Of a stretch of DNA of 64,000 bases, positions 57,290 to 64,000 are shown one piece after another. Each line of letters opens with the position of its first letter. The first letter of the stretch is position 1. Position numbers and translations under genes: made by a program. Where the stretch lies: positions 1 through 64,000 of the forward strand of contig NZ_AZDW01000037.1 in NCBI RefSeq assembly GCF_001434115.1, given 5' to 3'. Under the pieces are notes generated by a model, which was given only the letters and a program-made list of their open reading frames with translations, searched no databases and was not told the origin of the DNA. Origin of the DNA: Levilactobacillus zymae DSM 19395 (GTDB lineage Bacteria > Bacillota > Bacilli > Lactobacillales > Lactobacillaceae).

Positions 57290-58027
57290 ATGAGTGAAAA
57301 CAAGCCAAAGTCGCGGCCGCGGAATGCGGACGTGCATCAAAATCGTAATGCCGTGGCCACCAACGAGCGCACGGCGTTTGACAACTTGGGACTGACCAAG
57401 CGAAACGCCGACTACATGTTCCGCTTCAACAAGGCCTTAGAAGACACCAAGCTGACGCCCGAAAAGAAGGCCGCAGCCGTGCAAGAAATGGTCAACGAAC
57501 TGGTCGAAGGGCAGAAGAGTGGGAAGACCGCCAAGAACCTTTACGGCGACATCGCAAGCCGGGTCGCTTACGTGGTCGACGGTCCCAAGCGTGAGGCCGA
57601 GACCAAGGTCTTCGGGGGTCCCGATTACTGGCCCAACATGGCCTACAACGCGTTGACGTTCTTCATGATCTTCACGCTGTTGTTCGGGGTGATGTACCTC
57701 TTCTCGCCAAAACTGATGCAAACCAGTAGCCCCGTGGGGATCACGGCCATCTTGGTCAGTGCCCTGATTGCCGGGTTCCTGTTGCCGGTCATGCCCAAGT
57801 TGTTTGACCCTAAGATTAAGCACCGCTTCAACGGCTGGATTCGGTTTCTCTTTACCCTGTTAGGGTTCGCGGTGTGGATGGTTCTCTTCTACTTCGCTCA
57901 ATTATTGCCTAAGGCCATCAACCCCGTGTTGATGCCGTGGCCAAGTATCATCGTCGGCTTATTATCGATTGCCGGGATGGTCTGGTTACGTCGCCGCTAC
58001 AACATTCGCGGTGGGTTCTTCGGGTAA
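57290..58027 (+). CDS. DUF1129 family membrane protein
   Basis: 245 residues. A charged N-terminal domain (about 1-110, helical) is followed by four membrane segments (ALTFFMIFTLLFGVMYLF, ITAILVSALIAGFLLPV, FLFTLLGFAVWMVLFYF, IIVGLLSIAGMVWL). It fits DUF1129, a conserved neighbour of ychF in lactobacilli, function unknown. ATG 57290 (AGAAGGGAT upstream) is preferred to a longer frame overlapping ychF. Confidence -1.
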   Translation: MSENKPKSRPRNADVHQNRNAVATNERTAFDNLGLTKRNADYMFRFNKALEDTKLTPEKKAAAVQEMVNELVEGQKSGKTAKNLYGDIASRVAYVVDGPKREAETKVFGGPDYWPNMAYNALTFFMIFTLLFGVMYLFSPKLMQTSSPVGITAILVSALIAGFLLPVMPKLFDPKIKHRFNGWIRFLFTLLGFAVWMVLFYFAQLLPKAINPVLMPWPSIIVGLLSIAGMVWLRRRYNIRGGFFG

Positions 58028-58042
58028 ACCTAAATTAACGGC

Positions 58043-58076
58043 AAGTGTCATCTCCTGATTGGGGATGGCACTTTTT
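58043..58076 (+). terminator. Terminator of the rsmG-ychF region
   Basis: AAGTGTCATC pairs with GGATGGCACTT around a ~9-base loop, then TTT. Confidence -1.
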
Positions 58077-58223
58077 GTTTGTCGTTGGCGTTTTTGCCGG
58101 ATACGGCGGCTGGTATGTTTAGCCAGCCTACCAAGCCACTGGCCCGCAATCGGCCGGGCTACCGGCGTTTCGCCAGGATGGGGGAGGCGCTAACCGTTGG
58201 GTGACGTTTCGCAAGCGGAATGA

Positions 58224-58252
58224 TTGACCTGGCCCTAAAGCCTTTCTACTAT
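58224..58252 (+). promoter_or_regulatory. Promoter 1 of the small secreted protein family
   Basis: TTGACC, 17-base spacer, TACTAT; about 65 bases before the start. The leader contains GGATAGCC shortly after the -10, as in genes 3 and 4. Confidence -1.
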
Positions 58253-58319
58253 GGGGGTCGGATAGCCGACTGGGGATCGGTTAGCCACGATAGTCACAGT
58301 CATGATTGGGGGAGTTCTC

Positions 58320-58820
58320 ATGAATAAGATTTTAACTGGTGCAACGGGTTTGGTTGCGGCGTTGGCGTTGATTGGTGTGGCCGCGACCGCGAATGCCGAC
58401 GGAACGACGGGAAATCCGGGCATCGACAACGCCCAGTTGACCGCCACGGCGACCGCTAACGGGCAACTCGCCGACGATGATTCGGTTTACTTTCCACAGA
58501 TTGCCAGTTCACACACGGTAACCGCCCATGCGGCGGCCCAGACCCGGGTCCCCGCCACGCGACAACTACGCTTGAGTTCCCGGTATCACCGTAACGGCCG
58601 GACGTTGACCTTCTTGAAGGCTCAACGGGGCGCGGTCTTGACCTTACGTAATGGGCACCAACGTTGTGTCAAGCGCTTGACCATCACTAAGGACGGTCGC
58701 TTAACGGTCAAGCTGACTCGAGCGCAGGCGCGGCAACTAGGGGCGACCCGGACGTTTGAGTATACCGTGACCCAAAGTGGCATGCGGCCGTATACCGTGA
58801 AGTGCGTGATTTTGAAATAA
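58320..58820 (+). CDS. Small cationic secreted protein, family member 1
   Basis: 166 residues. Signal peptide (cleavage after TANA, about residue 26), a linker with DDDSVYFPQIAS, then a basic domain (about 82-166): LRLSSRYHRNGRTLTFLKAQRGA, TLRNGHQRCVKRLTITKDGRLTVKLTRAQARQL, ending TVTQSGMRPYTVKCVILK (all in sequence, broken here). Strand pattern and the DG-x-L-x-x-K-L motif suggest a small Ig-like beta sandwich; two cysteines could form a disulfide. Many Arg/Lys give a strongly positive charge. I know no function. Starts at ATG 58320 after GGGGGAG. First of five related genes. Confidence -1.
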   Translation: MNKILTGATGLVAALALIGVAATANADGTTGNPGIDNAQLTATATANGQLADDDSVYFPQIASSHTVTAHAAAQTRVPATRQLRLSSRYHRNGRTLTFLKAQRGAVLTLRNGHQRCVKRLTITKDGRLTVKLTRAQARQLGATRTFEYTVTQSGMRPYTVKCVILK

Positions 58821-58827
58821 TTGACGG

Positions 58828-58856
58828 GAGCTATCGCTGGTGATAGCTCTTTTTTG
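58828..58856 (+). terminator. Rho-independent terminator
   Basis: GAGCTATC pairs with GATAGCTC, 6-base loop, six T. Confidence -1.
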
Positions 58857-59006
58857 CTGACCTTTTTCAGTTAGTTTTCAATTCGATTGACTAGTTATGG
58901 GAACGGATGAGAGCTTGTGAAGTGGGGCTATAAATCCATTTATAGCAAGAAAATGGCTTTCACAAAAATAAAAGGGGTTTCGTGAAAATTGGAAGCGTAT
59001 CCGCTC

Positions 59007-59035
59007 TTGACAGACGTTTCAGGACTTTATAGAAT
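59007..59035 (+). promoter_or_regulatory. Promoter 2 of the small secreted protein family
   Basis: TTGACA, 17-base spacer, TAGAAT: near-consensus and the strongest of the four. Confidence -1.
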
Positions 59036-59085
59036 GAAACTTGCATAGAGGATATAGAGAAATCATTTGATTAGGAGATACTTTC

Positions 59086-59286
59086 ATGGAAAAAATTTTT
59101 GGTGCCGTTACCGGCGTTGTTGTCATTTTAGGCTTAGCTGGAGTCGCTGCGACCGCTAGTGCTGATACCACGATCAAGCCGGTCTACCGGAGTGAAAACG
59201 TCAAGAACTTAACGCACGTGAACGCTGGCTTATCCGCTAACGATTCCGTTTACTTCCCCCACGTCTCAACGGCGACGACGAAGTAA
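59086..59286 (+). CDS. Small secreted peptide, domain-less family member 2
   Basis: 66 residues. The signal peptide (cleavage after TASA) and the stretch ANDSVYFPHVST correspond to member 1 up to its linker, and the protein then stops before the basic domain, leaving a mature peptide of about 40 residues. It keeps a near-perfect promoter and AGGAG before the ATG. Either a truncated paralogue or a secreted peptide in its own right. Confidence -1.
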   Translation: MEKIFGAVTGVVVILGLAGVAATASADTTIKPVYRSENVKNLTHVNAGLSANDSVYFPHVSTATTK

Positions 59287-59302
59287 CGTTAACCTTTCTG
59301 AG

Positions 59303-59327
59303 ACTGCCCGCGGGTGGCCTTTTTTTG
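59303..59327 (+). terminator. Rho-independent terminator
   Basis: GC-rich hairpin GCCCGCGGGTGGC with seven T, soon after the stop of member 2. Confidence -1.
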
Positions 59328-59457
59328 TGCCGTCGAGCGGGGAGTATGGCTAATCAGCGGCCTTAACCAAATTGGCGGCTAAAGCCCGTGGCTAAGGCGT
59401 TTAACGGTGACGGGGGCCCGTCAGTGACCGCCTCAAAAACTAAGTCGAACGGCTGTC

Positions 59458-59486
59458 TTGACTCTGAATCACCGGCCCTCTAGACT
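59458..59486 (+). promoter_or_regulatory. Promoter 3 of the small secreted protein family
   Basis: TTGACT, 17-base spacer, TAGACT, followed by GGGTTGCAGATAGCC; the leader is shared with member 4 (GGATTGTAGATAGCC). Confidence -1.
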
Positions 59487-59539
59487 GGGTTGCAGATAGC
59501 CAGAGGTGACTACCGATCTATTTCTAGGGGGAGTTCTTT

Positions 59540-59914
59540 ATGAAAAAGATTTTAGGTTATGTTGCTGGTGTCGCTGCTGTGTTAGCTTTAGGTGGGTGTG
59601 CGTCAACGAGTGCCCAGGGTAGCAAGTCATCCGTGAAGACCTTATCCACGGCTAAGCAAATGAAATTGCGGACGAACTACACCAAGAACGCTCGGCAACT
59701 GGAATTCCAGAATGGTCGCAAGAACGCCAAGTTAACCGTCTTAAATGGCAAGAAGCAGTGCGTCAAGAAGTTTGACGTGAAAACCACGGGGAACTTTAAC
59801 TTGAAGCTGACTAAGGCCCAAGCTAAGAAGCTTAGCCAATGTTCCACCTTTAAGTATTCTGTGGCCCAAAAGGGGTACAAGACCTACACGGTTTCCAACC
59901 CAGTCTGCAAGTAA
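59540..59914 (+). CDS. Small cationic lipoprotein, family member 3
   Basis: 124 residues. The signal peptide ends in the lipobox ALGGC, so Cys20 should be lipidated and the protein tethered to the outer membrane face. The domain (about 40-124) matches members 1 and 4: MKLRTNYTKNARQLEFQNGRKNA, KKQCVKKFDVKTTGNFNLKLTKAQAKKL, YSVAQKGYKTYTVSNPVCK (in sequence, broken here). Lys-rich, strongly basic; three further cysteines. GGGGGAG precedes the ATG. Own promoter and terminator. Confidence -1.
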   Translation: MKKILGYVAGVAAVLALGGCASTSAQGSKSSVKTLSTAKQMKLRTNYTKNARQLEFQNGRKNAKLTVLNGKKQCVKKFDVKTTGNFNLKLTKAQAKKLSQCSTFKYSVAQKGYKTYTVSNPVCK

Positions 59915-59937
59915 CCTAAGGGTAAAATCGGTTATCT

Positions 59938-59968
59938 AGAGTCGGCTAACTGCCGGCTCTTTTTTTTG
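59938..59968 (+). terminator. Rho-independent terminator
   Basis: AGAGTCGGC pairs with GCCGGCTCT around TAACT, then eight T. Confidence -1.
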
Positions 59969-60174
59969 GCATAATGGCGAAGGGGAAAACTCATCAGGCC
60001 CGCTGACAGCTAAACGGTTAAGCGGGGGAGGCCATGGAAAACTAATCGTTATAATTAGCTAACTTTCAATTGTCGCTGACAACCGAATTGTCGTTGAAAT
60101 GCTGATGTGACAGGAATTGTGGCCGGCTTTTGTCGGCACGATAAACCGGTGACTAGCGACTAAATCGCGAATGC
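59969..60174. other. Intergenic region between members 3 and 4
   Basis: About 200 bases; small repeats such as GGCCGGC-TTTT-GTCGGC, no ORF. Member 4's promoter follows. Confidence -1.
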
Positions 60175-60202
60175 TTGACTCTAACGGGTCCCCCTCTAGA
60201 AT
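60175..60202 (+). promoter_or_regulatory. Promoter 4 of the small secreted protein family
   Basis: TTGACT, 16-base spacer, TAGAAT, then GGATTGTAGATAGCC in the leader. Confidence -1.
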
Positions 60203-60266
60203 GGATTGTAGATAGCCAATGCCTGTGACGACTGACTATAATCCAAAACTCTGAGGGGGAGTTTTC

Positions 60267-60839
60267 ATGAAAAAAGTTTTAGGATATGCTGCAGCTTTAG
60301 TTGCCGCGTTGTCACTGGCGGGTGTTGCGGCAACTTCCGCCCATGCGGACGGGGCTTCAGCTGATGCCGCAAGTGGCATCAGTAGTTCTTCATCATCGGA
60401 TACCTACGACGCCTCATTTAGTTTCGATGGGGGCGGGGATGCCGCAGTGCCAACGGCGGATTCCAGTTCGGCAGTTAGTGCCAGCTCTAGTTCGGCGGCT
60501 AGCTCCAGTTCTTCAGCAGAATCTAGCAAGCCCGAAAAGCCAGCTAAGAAGCCGGCTAAGGTCGTAAAGAGTTCCAAGAAGATGCGGGGTCGTTTGCGTT
60601 ATCGTAAGGATAGCCGCACCGTGCTCTTCCAAAAGGGCCGCAAAGGGGCTAAGGTCACGTTGCGGAACCGCAAGGGCCAATACGTCACGAAGTTTACCGT
60701 TAAGCGCGATGGCAAGTTCAGCATTAAGTTGAGCAAGAAGGAAGCCGAAAAGCTCGCCAAGTACGGCAAGTACTTCACGTTCACGGTTGCCGAAAAGGGC
60801 TACAAGACCTATACCGTTAAGTACGTGATCTTCAAGTAA
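60267..60839 (+). CDS. Small cationic secreted protein with Ser-rich linker, family member 4
   Basis: 190 residues. Signal peptide (cleavage after SAHA, about residue 27), an acidic/Ser-rich stretch, a long Ser/Ala linker (about 55-90), Pro/Lys spacer (KPEKPAKKPAK), then the family domain (about 105-190): RGRLRYRKDSRTVLFQKGRKGA, VTLRNRKGQYVTKFTVKRDGKFSIKLSKKEAEKL, TVAEKGYKTYTVKYVIFK (in sequence). Cysteine-free in the domain. The Ser-rich linker would span the cell wall, and the very basic domain could bind teichoic acids; this is inference. GGGGGAG precedes the ATG. Confidence -1.
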   Translation: MKKVLGYAAALVAALSLAGVAATSAHADGASADAASGISSSSSSDTYDASFSFDGGGDAAVPTADSSSAVSASSSSAASSSSSAESSKPEKPAKKPAKVVKSSKKMRGRLRYRKDSRTVLFQKGRKGAKVTLRNRKGQYVTKFTVKRDGKFSIKLSKKEAEKLAKYGKYFTFTVAEKGYKTYTVKYVIFK

Positions 60840-60856
60840 CTCAAAGTGGATTTTCA

Positions 60857-60893
60857 AAAAAACGCGGGGGATGCCAATCCTCGGCGTTTTTTT
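60857..60893 (+). terminator. Rho-independent terminator
   Basis: AAAAAACGC-GGGGAT pairs with ATCCTC-GGCGTTTTTTT. Confidence -1.
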
Positions 60894-61028
60894 CGGCCTA
60901 ACGCAGGCGAAACCCTTTCCACAAGCGAATTCATAGCGAATTGCGCGCAGCGAAGGGTTGCGACTTGGTGAGGGGGACCACGACTCGTATAATACAGCGT
61001 AAATCAACTTAAAAGGGAGTTGGCAAAA

Positions 61029-61415
61029 TTGGGGGAATTGATTCAGATGACGACGGCGAGTGGCGAACCGGTAGATCAAGAAACGATTGTGATTGTGCCC
61101 CGGAAGAAGCATCTGCCGGTGGCCAAGGGGCCGTTAACGACCCCGTCGCAGCCGGTCGGACCGACCTTGCGGCTCAAGGCAATTCGACCGAAGAAACGGC
61201 AGCTGCGCTTTCATCACGGCCAGCGGGGGATGACGGTGGTTCTTCGCGACCAAGCTCACCAGGTCGTGCGGGTGGTGCGGGTCACTCGGCGGGGAAAACT
61301 GACGGTGACCCTTTCCAAGCAACAGTTACGGACCCTGACGGCCGGACCGTTTTACGTGACGTTGCTGGTCGCCCAACACCCGGCAACCACTGTGAAGTAC
61401 GTGGTAGCCGGTTAA
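61029..61415 (+). CDS. Family member 5, cationic domain without signal peptide
   Basis: About 128 residues. The second half (about 48-128) is the same domain: LRLKAIRPKKRQLRFHHGQRG, VVLRDQAHQVVRVVRVTRRGKLTVTLSKQQLRTL, VAQHPATTVKYVVAG (in sequence). The N-terminus (ELIQMTTASGEPVDQETIVIVPRKK) has no signal peptide, so the protein is cytosolic or exported otherwise, or the signal sequence was lost. TTG 61029 follows AAAGGGAG at 9 bases; the TTG at 61020 is too close. A TATAATA-like -10 (60988) precedes it. More divergent in sequence and GC content than members 1-4. Confidence -1.
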   Translation: MGELIQMTTASGEPVDQETIVIVPRKKHLPVAKGPLTTPSQPVGPTLRLKAIRPKKRQLRFHHGQRGMTVVLRDQAHQVVRVVRVTRRGKLTVTLSKQQLRTLTAGPFYVTLLVAQHPATTVKYVVAG

Positions 61416-61579
61416 TCAATAACTAAATTAATTGTAAGGTGATCTAGTGATCGGCTTTTTTTCACGGTGAAATGGTTGAAGCCACCCGTTAGCTGCCCCA
61501 TAATGCGAACCGAATAGCGGCGAGACTAACTCTCGTTGCCACGGTGAGGATTTGACCTCAGGGGGAGAATGGGTGACCG

Positions 61580-63235
61580 TGCGTGTTGGCTAAACTAAAA
61601 GCAAAATTGAATAATCGGGAATACCAGTACCTGGCGTTGTTTACGCTGCTGGGCTTCTTTATCATGTTGATCTGTTCGTACACGTCCCCGGCGTTTTACT
61701 TCGATTATTCGCCGGACAACAACGCCTTTTTCACGGTGGGTAAGGCCATGGCGCACGGTCAGGTCTTGTACAAGGACATCTTCGAACAGAAGGGGCCGTA
61801 CATCTACCTGCTCCACATCATCGCGTACTTAGTGGCGCAACGGAGCTTTGTGTTCATTTACTTCTACGAGTCGCTGACCCTAATTGCGTCAATGTATCTG
61901 ACGTACCGCATCGCTAAGCTGGTACTGACCACGCCGCAAGCCTTGCTAGTCGGTATTCTATCGCCCGCGTTGTTCCTGTACCACCCGTATTACGATTACG
62001 GGGACACGGCGGAATTTTTCGCCTTGCCGCTGATTTTGTCACTGATTTATCTGATCATGCTCCTAGTGGTGCACCACTTACGGGTCAGCCCCTGGTGGTT
62101 CTTCGCGCAGGGCCTGTTCGTCGGGATCGAATTCTTCTCGAAGTACACGTTACTGGGGGGCTGGATTGCCTTTTACCTGTTCATGGGCGTCTATTTGTTG
62201 CGGCGGAAAAAGTGGCAGATGTTGCAACGCCTGATTCTTTGGAGTGGCGCCGGCTTTCTGCTGGCAACGGTGCCGTGGATCGTTTACTTTGCGGTGGTCC
62301 ACGGGTTGAAGAGCTTTATCGCCGTGTATTTCCTGTTTAACACGCAGGTCTACATGACGTCGTCCGTGTCGTTCTTCGCTAACCTGGTGCAATCGGCCAG
62401 CCTCTTGTCCCAATTCTTCTTGTCTAGCGTGGTCTTCTTCATGCTGGGTCTGGTGGGGACGCTGGCCATCACCTTCCGGACGGATATCTTACCGGGAGCC
62501 TTCGCCAAGAGCCTGTATCTGTTGGTCTTCTTGGGCAACGACATCTTTGCGCTATACGGGTATAGCAGCGGGAACGTTTTTCAATACTATCAATTGGTCT
62601 ACTTCCCGTTCTTTGTCTTGCCATTAATCTACTTCTGCAAGTTCTTCTTCGACCGACAAACGATTCGCAGTGACGACGATGCGTTGACCATCCTGGCGAC
62701 AATTCTGGTCAGTCTCTTCTTGGTACTGGGGGTCAACAACAACTTCACCAGTTCGCGGCTGTTTCCTAATAACGCGTCCGTAACGGATCGGCACACCAAG
62801 GTGCCCCAGGCGCCCGCCCAAACCGAATTTGGTGACTTAATGCGGGCCCAAACCACCGGGAAGATGACCTTGCTGAACTATGGCTCAATCGACATGGGGT
62901 TTTACACCGCCTCGGGGGCCGTGCCGACCCAGTATTACTTCCAGAATTACAATATTCCGGCCAAGAGCGATCCGACAATCCTGAATTCACAGGTCAACGC
63001 GATTCGCCACAAGCAAGTGGAATGGGTGGTCTTTAACACGCCCGCGGGGAAGTCGCCCCAAGCTTGGAAGGGACTATCGTATAAGCCGGGGCAGATCACG
63101 GACGGGAACTTGAATCCGGGAACCGCCCAGATGAGTAAAATTCTTTACCGCAATTATCGGTACGTCGCGCAACACACGCAGAGTTTTGAAAACATGAACG
63201 TGACGTATTGGTTATTCCAGCGGAAGGGAAATTGA
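61580..63235 (+). CDS. Multi-pass membrane protein, GT-C glycosyltransferase-like
   Basis: About 551 residues with 11-12 hydrophobic segments and a C-terminal extracytoplasmic domain (about 425-551). The N-terminal loop after the first segment, FYFDYSPDNNAFFTVGKAMAHGQVLYKDIFEQKGP in parts, has the D-x-x-x-x-x-G-x-x-Y-x-D-F/I layout of GT39/GT83-like polyprenyl-phosphate-sugar transferases, with acidic residues in the catalytic loop. It may add sugars to wall polymers or surface proteins. Start GTG 61580 or TTG 61583; GGGGGAG lies further upstream than usual. Confidence -1.
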   Translation, partial: CVLAKLKAKLNNREYQYLALFTLLGFFIMLICSYTSPAFYFDYSPDNNAFFTVGKAMAHGQVLYKDIFEQKGPYIYLLHIIAYLVAQRSFVFIYFYESLTLIASMYLTYRIAKLVLTTPQALLVGILSPALFLYHPYYDYGDTAEFFALPLILSLIYLIMLLVVHHLRVSPWWFFAQGLFVGIEFFSKYTLLGGWIAFYLFMGVYLLRRKKWQMLQRLILWSGAGFLLATVPWIVYFAVVHGLKSFIAVYFLFNTQVYMTSSVSFFANLVQSASLLSQFFLSSVVFFMLGLVGTLAITFRTDILPGAFAKSLYLLVFLGNDIFALYGYSSGNVFQYYQLVYFPFFVLPLIYFCKFFFDRQTIRSDDDALTILATILVSLFLVLGVNNNFTSSRLFPNNASVTDRHTKVPQAPAQTEFGDLMRAQTTGKMTLLNYGSIDMGFYTASGAVPTQYYFQNYNIPAKSDPTILNSQVNAIRHKQVEWVVFNTPAGKSPQAWKGLSYKPGQITDGNLNPGTAQMSKILYRNYRYVAQHTQSFENMNVTYWLFQRKGN

Positions 63236-63272
63236 TACAGGTAACGAGGCGTCAGTGGGGGAGTCTGGTAGA

Positions 63273-64000
63273 ATGACGCAATTGATGCGACGAGTGGTCA
63301 CCAAGTATTGGTGGCAGTTAGAGCTACTGAGTTTTGTCGTGCTCAGTCTGATTTGGATCTTACCCTGGGGCTTTTCTGGCAAAATCTATCTGGGCGATGA
63401 CCTGGGGTTTCATCTGAACCGAATCCAGGGCTTAGCTAAGGACATTCAGCTGAGCGGCAATTGGTGGCAGATTCCGGCGGTCTCGACCGCGGCCTTTAGC
63501 GGGTGGGGTTATCCCATCAACCTGTTCTACCCGGCGGCCGCCTTACTGCCGGCGGCTTGGTTGCAAACCATTGCCAGTGGCGTTGGCGGGTACTACGTCT
63601 TCTTGGTTTTATTGAACGTCTTGACTCTGTGGGTGGCGGCGACAGTTGCGGCGCGCTTGCTGCCGAGCCGGTCGCAGGCCTTCTTAGCCGCCGTGATTTA
63701 CGGCTTTGCGCAATACCGTTTTCTGGACTTCTTCGTGCGGGGGTCACTAGCGGAAGGCATCGTCTTTGCCTTTCTGCCACTGATTTTCTACGGCGTCTAT
63801 AGTATCGCGGCCGGTGATTATCACAAGTGGCCGTGGTTGGCCGTGGGGATGGCGTTGATCGCATTGACCCACGTGATTTCGCTGGTTCTCAGCAGTGTCG
63901 GGGTCGTCATCATGTTAAGCCTTTGGGGCTTGCGGCGTAAGGAACTCCGGGCACGGGGACTACGCTTCGGGGCCGCCGCGGGACTGGCCGTTTTGCTGTC
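63273..64000 (+). CDS. Multi-pass membrane protein, YfhO/GT-C-like, truncated by window edge
   Basis: At least 242 residues; the 3' end lies outside the window. After the first hydrophobic segment comes GDDLGFHLNRIQGLAKDIQ, an acidic pair in the first extracytoplasmic loop as in GT-C enzymes and YfhO-family proteins, then several membrane segments (YYVFLVLLNVLTLWVAATVAA, AFLAAVIYGFAQYRF, GIVFAFLPLIFYGVYS). GGGGGAG precedes the ATG, 37 bases after the previous stop, so both genes are probably one operon. Confidence -1.
   Translation, partial: MTQLMRRVVTKYWWQLELLSFVVLSLIWILPWGFSGKIYLGDDLGFHLNRIQGLAKDIQLSGNWWQIPAVSTAAFSGWGYPINLFYPAAALLPAAWLQTIASGVGGYYVFLVLLNVLTLWVAATVAARLLPSRSQAFLAAVIYGFAQYRFLDFFVRGSLAEGIVFAFLPLIFYGVYSIAAGDYHKWPWLAVGMALIALTHVISLVLSSVGVVIMLSLWGLRRKELRARGLRFGAAAGLAVLL

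Follow-up and report, generated by a model that had tools for sequence, protein, structure and literature searches.

What might a tandem set of small, strongly cationic, mostly secreted proteins do in a lactobacillus, and does it work alone? The question is raised by positions 58224-61415 of a 64,000-nucleotide stretch (hereafter the window) of Levilactobacillus zymae DSM 19395, contig NZ_AZDW01000037.1, whose genome is 2.7 Mb in size. The first-pass annotation had described this cluster and overlooked its fixed pairing with memA, a gene for a predicted GT-C glycosyltransferase located just beyond 61415. The cluster members (M1 to M5) and memA are listed below with the evidence on which each assignment is based; Ig-like stands for immunoglobulin-like and ORF for open reading frame.

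58320-58820, forward strand: M1, with a signal peptide, a Ser-poor linker and a cationic Ig-like domain with two Cys at 58560-58817 (ORF and profile).
59086-59286, forward strand: M2, a secreted mini-protein of 66 amino acids without the domain, akin to the N-terminal part of M1 (ORF, comparison and selection).
59540-59914, forward strand: M3, lipoprotein-like (LALGGC), with the domain at 59651-59902 (ORF, profile and pattern).
60267-60839, forward strand: M4, the main type, with a signal peptide, a Ser/Ala-rich stalk at about 60348-60569 and a cationic Ig-like domain at 60570-60836 (ORF, profile and fold model).
61020-61415, forward strand: M5, without a signal peptide, with a TTG start at 61020 or 61029 and the domain at 61185-61406 (ORF and profile).
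61583-63235, forward strand: memA, polytopic, 550 amino acids, with a predicted GT-C (ArnT/PMT-like) fold, paired with the family (profile, neighbourhood and fold model).

Of 35 Levilactobacillus genomes, 34 have the family domain, which they carry at a single conserved locus and some of them also in extra copies elsewhere; memA was found in the same 34. Upstream of every one of the 45 memA copies (47 ORFs, as two copies are split), and in the same orientation, there is a family gene at a distance of 29-973 base pairs; at the loci L067 and L068 the two are separated by another small secreted ORF. Wherever the contig reaches, the order is DUF1129, family, memA and guaB, and it is doubled in ten genomes. 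The lone family-negative genome (G004) has ychF, DUF1129, guaB and the response regulator gene in place, with the family and memA both missing. Its empty site (L210, 9760-10353) holds a different, membrane-like ORF of 197 amino acids between DUF1129 and guaB. The trees of the family and of memA agreed overall with r 0.52 for 42 pairs, versus at most 0.18 in permutations, and when partners were swapped within the ten genomes that have two units, 15 of 2000 swaps gave the agreement observed. For this comparison the M4-type partner was taken where M5 lies nearer, and the split memA genes (L051 and L081) and L045 were omitted. Judged by gene content, order and trees, the family protein and memA form one unit, duplicated together and missing together in one species. 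We found no description of this pairing in the open-access literature searched, and absence there is not proof.

The AlphaFold2 model of memA had a predicted local distance difference test score (pLDDT) of 76.3 and a predicted template modelling score (pTM) of 0.80. Its best fold matches were ArnT with undecaprenyl phosphate (Z 18.8, 447 residues aligned) and the protein O-mannosyltransferase Pmt4 (Z 18.5). Of the listed entries, 48 had Z above 10 and the next one Z 5.1; from their titles and general knowledge, we take these 48 to be GT-C-fold proteins, PIG-U of the glycosylphosphatidylinositol transamidase included. Foldseek returned the same GT-C group, with 22 matches at E<=0.001, and comparison of memA with NCBIfam gave no family at E<=1. 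The predicted fold of memA is that of a GT-C glycosyltransferase. Eight acidic residues are invariant in the 29 rows of the memA alignment, and three of them (D41, D45 and E68) would be placed in the first outer loop by the helices of the model. This alignment covered 28 of 36 named loci, leaving out L160, L175 and L176 (broken gene) and L152, L156, L163, L168 and L169 (by choice). The memA of L. acidifarinae is 97% identical to that of the window. Among six plasmid records with memA relatives, four are annotated as glycosyltransferase family 39 (GT39) and two as hypothetical. Two GT2 candidates for a sugar donor synthase were found in the window's genome, both on other contigs, by using as a query a gene of a Lentilactobacillus locus that reaches 247.7 bits with the PgfS model, whose cut-off is 500; the interval from DUF1129 to guaB on the window's contig contains neither a GT2 nor an epimerase gene. 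Stops or frameshifts split memA in L051 and L081 of Levilactobacillus and in L127 of Lentilactobacillus, and the family gene of L045 is frameshifted, which may reflect strain decay or assembly error.

A second genus provided a further view of memA. Besides the Levilactobacillus genomes, we fetched 20 memA-positive loci of Lactobacillaceae (6 of Lentilactobacillus and 14 others) and 20 loci from other families of Lactobacillales. In Lentilactobacillus memA was present in 6 of 24 genomes, the carriers including hilgardii, parafarraginis, diolivorans, raoultii and farraginis. Five of the 24 genomes, all of them memA-positive, encode a secreted protein whose stalk is rich in Ser/Thr and whose end is rich in Lys, and in 5/5 a copy adjoins memA; in one there is a second match elsewhere, within a 757-amino-acid frame. 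The other 18 genomes, which are memA-negative, had no match to this protein at E<=1e-5. The chance that all five fall within the six memA carriers is 6 in 42504 by simple arithmetic uncorrected for relatedness. The plan of the protein (signal peptide, Ser/Thr-rich stalk, Lys-rich end) is like that of M4, and its Lys-rich end looks similar to Ala/Lys helical repeats, while the family profile gave no match to it at E<=1e-4. What stays constant across both genera is thus enzyme, stalk and cationic end, and this is the main reason why we prefer the stalk as the putative memA substrate. In a strict test for Ser/Thr-rich secreted neighbours, 24 of 46 memA ORFs of Levilactobacillus passed versus 4 of 249 other genes. 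The looser pattern S-[AST]1-2-S was found in 52 of 68 family ORFs.

The pairing might also be one of location only. According to this explanation, which we consider improbable, the family comprises wall-structural or S-layer-associated proteins unconnected to memA, and the two are neighbours only through the frozen ychF-guaB region. Consistent with it, synteny extends over the entire neighbourhood in the genomes fetched, lactobacilli are known to have wall proteins with Ig-like domains (such as IgdA of L. acidophilus, PMC7090030), and the family has copies at other loci and on three L. brevis plasmids, where they are annotated as hypothetical and where no memA relative was found. Against it speak the joint absence at the otherwise intact site of G004, the joint duplication with partners matching better than random, and the parallel Lentilactobacillus pairing, which is located in a different neighbourhood.

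The other half of the question is what the cationic domain may do. About 85 residues long, it is common to the translated ORFs of M1, M3, M4 and M5, and at E<=0.001 the profile search of the window's genome found exactly these four copies. The isolated M4 domain scored 28.8 bits with Pfam Big_6 (PF17936, cut-off 27.6); the full-length proteins were all below the cut-off (M4 27.4, M3 16.9 and M5 15.2 bits, no match for M1 and M2). Big_6 was matched at E<=0.01 by 47 of the 61 rows of the domain alignment (A2), from which pieces shorter than 70 residues and identical domains had been removed. The AlphaFold2 model of the domain (pLDDT 93.1, pTM 0.82) is a small beta-sandwich with one helix. Its nearest solved folds among the listed entries, outside which further families are possible, were Epf (4es8, Z 9.3), RgpB (1cvr, Z 9.2) and Bap-C (7dm0, Z 9.1), together with PorZ (Z 9.1-9.3), on a scale where models that match nothing clearly often have Z 7-8. 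Foldseek had no match at E<=0.001 (best 1.4e-3), and the only solved protein matched by the family profile below E 0.001 was Epf of Streptococcus pyogenes (E 3.1e-4). The fold match is modest and the Big_6 scores are borderline; by prediction, the domain belongs near Big_6 among the bacterial Ig-like domains. The profile and structure searches that the first-pass annotation had proposed bear out its small Ig-like sandwich. A clear match to a family of known function, which the annotation had named as refuting its view, was not found, although the domain does have relatives, by a borderline match, in Big_6. The distinguishing trait of the domain is its strong positive charge: the net charge is +9 to +36 (median +21) in the 61 rows, and 18 positions are at least 75% Lys/Arg. 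No SLAP, GW or S-layer anchoring domain was found in M1-M5 with Pfam at E<=10, a search in which the HMMER filters drop most very weak matches, and no NCBIfam family came near its cut-off with these proteins.

The explanation that we favour, with slightly less than even confidence, is that the cationic domain keeps the protein on the anionic wall while memA glycosylates the Ser/Ala-rich stalk from a lipid-linked sugar. Most family proteins would be exported by their signal peptide, a feature read from sequence. The C-terminal Big_6-like domain would then retain the protein on an anionic wall polymer, for example teichoic acid; binding of such a polymer is plausible from the charge, and wall retention is suggested by the charge, the C-terminal position and the reuse of the domain on another secreted protein. 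M4 would project its stalk, of low complexity and rich in Ser/Ala, outward, and memA, by its predicted fold a GT-C lipid-phosphate-sugar transferase, could add an O-linked sugar to it outside the membrane. The donor would be supplied in trans by a GtrB/PgfS-like synthase encoded elsewhere in the genome. M1, M3 and M5 may be side branches that keep the domain with other presentations. A broader proposal, which we put forward more tentatively, is a substrate-dedicated O-glycosylation module, in which the GT-C enzyme and the secreted stalk protein form the unit and the wall-binding end is swapped between genera: a cationic Big_6-like Ig domain in Levilactobacillus and a Lys-rich repeat end in Lentilactobacillus, with the Ser/Ala/Thr stalk and the enzyme unchanged. 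If so, the cell would gain a glycosylated, electrostatically held coat, and a wall-retained carrier and its sugar-coating enzyme would evolve as one unit. Together, memA and its constant neighbour are a short, testable candidate pair for extracellular O-glycosylation in food bacteria, and the pairing sets in context a family that is nearly genus-wide and hypothetical in the annotation of its plasmid members.

A number of observations weigh against glycosylation of the stalk by memA. Linkage alone can yield tree agreement, so the trees speak for co-inheritance as units, not for function; some tree placements conflict (L069), and the housekeeping genes nearby are equally fixed in place. With PMT_2 (PF13231) memA scored 20.8 bits (E 4.9e-4), under the cut-off of 26.1. 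Relatives of memA occur in 83 of the 397 Lactobacillaceae genomes sampled and in 21 of 40 genera, a wider distribution than that of the domain family. Only the above 24 of 46 Levilactobacillus memA ORFs passed the strict test, many stalks of this genus being rich in Ala/Gly instead of Ser; of the Lentilactobacillus genes, 5 of 7 memA ORFs passed, yet so did 5 of 16 others. In the 14 further loci of Lactobacillaceae, 1 of 15 memA-like genes had a Ser/Thr-rich secreted neighbour (control genes 0/44), and in the 20 loci of other Lactobacillales 1 of 22 (control genes 0/91). The loci fetched outside Levilactobacillus and Lentilactobacillus thus contradict a Ser-rich neighbour as a universal property of memA. 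There is hardly any stalk in M1 and M3; M5, although located between M4 and memA, is without one and also without a signal peptide. Site scanning of the M5-memA gap gave a single weak promoter-like site, at 61476, and no terminator-like site; as M4 has its own terminator-like site and memA this weak promoter-like site, co-transcription of M4 and memA is only a possibility.

We regard the main alternative as possible but rather unlikely: memA would decorate lipoteichoic acid or wall teichoic acid, a job of the YfhO/GtlB type, and the cationic proteins would bind or organise that polymer. The two neighbours would then be the maker of a polymer decoration and a protein binding that polymer, instead of an enzyme with its substrate. 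The strong charge of the domain agrees with this. A further point against a protein substrate is the precedent in Bacillus and Listeria, where extracellular GT-C proteins and GtrB-like synthases are described as needed for glycosylation of lipoteichoic or wall teichoic acid (PMC5836110). At about half of the 20 loci from other Lactobacillales, moreover, memA relatives adjoin genes read as GT2 synthases (no family search was run on these), not secreted proteins, and at a few of them small membrane proteins read as GtrA-like are located nearby. As ArnT and the protein-modifying Pmt4 match the model equally well, the choice between a teichoic acid and a protein is left undecided by the fold. Taken alone, teichoic acid decoration leaves unexplained why the non-homologous Lentilactobacillus partner has the same plan, Ser/Thr-rich stalk included.

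Across the Lactobacillaceae sample the family was found in 30 of 397 genomes, 24 of which belong to Levilactobacillus. Five of the six positives outside the genus (E 1e-5 to 1e-3) are proteins with two to thirteen domain copies, and the sixth (G144) comprises two adjacent long proteins with one profile match each. Simple patterns divided 68 family ORFs into 56 with an ordinary signal peptide, 6 with a lipobox and 6 without a signal peptide, one of these last six being the tail fragment of a gene with a frameshift. The profile used to collect these ORFs had been iterated on the fetched loci, among them L084-L089 from outside the genus, so that copy numbers there are biased towards it, and the two pieces of the frameshifted L045 gene were counted as two. 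In L076 and L082, both away from memA, the domain is located C-terminally on a different, acidic N-terminal part, as expected of a binding module; the two proteins (L076 6241-7122 and L082 4720-5604) are secreted, of about 290 amino acids, and otherwise unrelated. In another genus of the Lactobacillaceae, small secreted proteins with three (L084 3481-4494) and two (L085 3410-4171) related Ig-like domains have net charges of +59 and +28, and the adjoining gene was read as diacylglycerol-kinase-like.

An antimicrobial or competition role, which the first-pass annotation had also allowed, appears very improbable. Proteins of this family are cationic, secreted and diversified, with several tandem copies in one clade, and beyond charge and secretion there is little in favour. 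The distribution that the annotation had suggested checking instead places them in nearly all genomes of the genus, at a conserved housekeeping locus; the folded Ig domain is not a lytic peptide, and no immunity gene was noticed, without any search aimed at one. No PADLOC match was obtained, and comparison of the window proteins with PHROG gave one weak match (M3, E 0.0015), annotated as of unknown function. An antimicrobial, defence or phage origin was therefore rejected.

Within the cluster, M2 consists of a signal peptide and some 40 residues that are similar to the N-terminal region of M1. As it does not contain the domain, the "four or five" domain genes of the annotation are four; their presentation as secreted, lipoprotein, Ser-linker and cytosolic forms agrees with the sequence features of M1, M3, M4 and M5, respectively. 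Relatives of M2 occur in three other genomes (L043, L044 and L045; 60, 94 and 56% identity). The earliest ATG of M1 is at 58302, and the start at 58320 is preceded by a GGGGGAG site. M3 is a predicted lipoprotein by its lipobox pattern: a LALGGC-type Cys is present in 6 of the 7 closest ORFs, M3 counted (at least 55% identity), and missing in L080. A GH25 lysozyme was dropped as an M3 neighbour, being annotated in plasmid L247, read in L079 and not seen in L077, L078 and L080. M5-type members (window, L043, L044, L045 and L069) occur in one clade, where they lie between M4 and memA, and have the Ig domain without a signal peptide; a secretory-type domain within an apparently cytosolic protein is odd. 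The ratios of nonsynonymous to synonymous substitution rates (dN/dS) relative to L. acidifarinae were 0.06 for M1, 0.04 for M2, 0.11 for M3, 0.07 for M4 and 0.11 for M5. All five are under purifying selection, which indicates that M2 and M5 are real genes.

The annotation had also assigned a promoter and a terminator to each of M1-M4 and a leader with GATAGCC to members 1, 3 and 4, and such sites were recovered by site scan and word search; they are listed here, followed by the second membrane-protein gene, memB:

58224-58252, forward strand: M1 promoter-like site, TTGACC-17-TACTAT (site scan).
58261-58267, forward strand: M1 leader word GATAGCC (word search).
58826-58851, forward strand: M1 terminator-like site (site scan).
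59007-59035, forward strand: M2 promoter-like site, TTGACA-17-TAGAAT (site scan).
59304-59317, forward strand: M2 terminator-like site (site scan).
59458-59486, forward strand: M3 promoter-like site (site scan).
59495-59501, forward strand: M3 leader word GATAGCC (word search).
59938-59960, forward strand: M3 terminator-like site (site scan).
60175-60202, forward strand: M4 promoter-like site (site scan).
60211-60217, forward strand: M4 leader word GATAGCC (word search).
60865-60883, forward strand: M4 terminator-like site (site scan).
63255-64000, forward strand: memB, a second polytopic membrane protein, continuing past the window to contig position 64982 (ORF and profile).

On both strands of 58000-63400 there are 9 promoter-like sites versus 4.1 in shuffles (standard deviation 1.9) and 11 terminator-like sites versus 6.1 (standard deviation 2.8). 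The word GATAGCC starts 36-37 nucleotides from the start of the -35 hexamer in M1, M3 and M4, and in M1 it is likely near the 5' end of the transcript, judging from the promoter-like site. Its frequency in the window is unremarkable (10 matches versus a shuffle mean of 4.7; 4 of 100 shuffles reach 10). The shorter GATAGC was found at most 200 nucleotides upstream of 18 of the 68 family genes, the window's three included, at 35-40 nucleotides from the -35 hexamer. Genes so led occur in the window, in G034 and G019 and in loci assigned to acidifarinae, spicheri, suantsaii, namurensis and faecigallinarum, and also among family copies at other loci, one of them within a mulengensis genome. The memB gene was found again 3' of memA in several species, and the whole protein had no Pfam match at E<=1. 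Between guaB and the response regulator gene, at contig positions 66538-67104 (L083 16539-17105), a secreted matrixin-like metalloprotease of 188 amino acids is encoded (PF00413, E 8e-13), which is present in some of the fetched loci only.

On the reading that memA glycosylates the stalk, the module would work like extracellular protein glycosylation of the GT39 or Pgf type. In Caldicellulosiruptor bescii the GT39 protein Cbes_1864 (556 amino acids) is encoded close to celA, and its deletion is described as leaving the secreted enzymes without glycostain (PMC6151902). It resembles memA in being a Gram-positive GT39 protein of the same size class located near a secreted substrate with low-complexity linkers; the substrates there differ in being cellulases with Thr/Pro linkers, and the enzyme sequences are set side by side here by description only. 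In Streptococcus mutans the acceptor gene cnm is near a gene for a PMT_2-type membrane protein, in the order cnm-pgfS-pgfM1-pgfE-pgfM2 (PMC5856776). All Levilactobacillus memA copies similarly have a candidate acceptor gene beside a PMT-like gene, the acceptor role being putative, but in the window no GT2 or epimerase gene adjoins memA. The memA profiles gave no match below E 1e-3 to proteins around PgfS-model matches in 12 genomes, among which S. mutans was not identified; 11 of these 12 matches were above the model's cut-off. Orthology with these proteins was accordingly rejected, and since memA has no pgfS or epimerase gene next to it and no relation in sequence came to light, we do not claim membership in Pgf and retain it as an analogy only.

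The species formerly called Lactobacillus buchneri now belongs to Lentilactobacillus. Its S-layer protein and a GH25 muramidase are reported to be O-glucosylated at Ser/Ala clusters, a modification suggested to be extracellular, and the passages considered name no enzyme for it (PMC5796085). The Ser/Ala acceptor clusters resemble the S-[AST]1-2-S pattern of the family ORFs, whereas the named memA-positive Lentilactobacillus are other species. With no buchneri record identified among the memA-positive Lentilactobacillus genomes, memA as the enzyme of this O-glucosylation is without support.

Big_6 and the family domain are both Ig-like beta-sandwiches, and they differ in that the family has a single, strongly cationic C-terminal copy on a small protein. 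Big_6 domains are usually arrayed in large adhesins, which fits the multi-copy repeat proteins found outside the genus; to our knowledge, Big_6 is a structural domain without one single function. IgdA, the Ig-like-domain surface protein mentioned above, disturbs the cell surface when deleted (PMC7090030); it differs in its Group 3 Ig-like domain and GW anchor, M1-M5 having no GW or S-layer domain match. S-layer proteins of lactobacilli are described as being held through a positively charged teichoic-acid-binding region (PMC11181022), so that the electrostatic retention suggested for the cationic domain has precedent.

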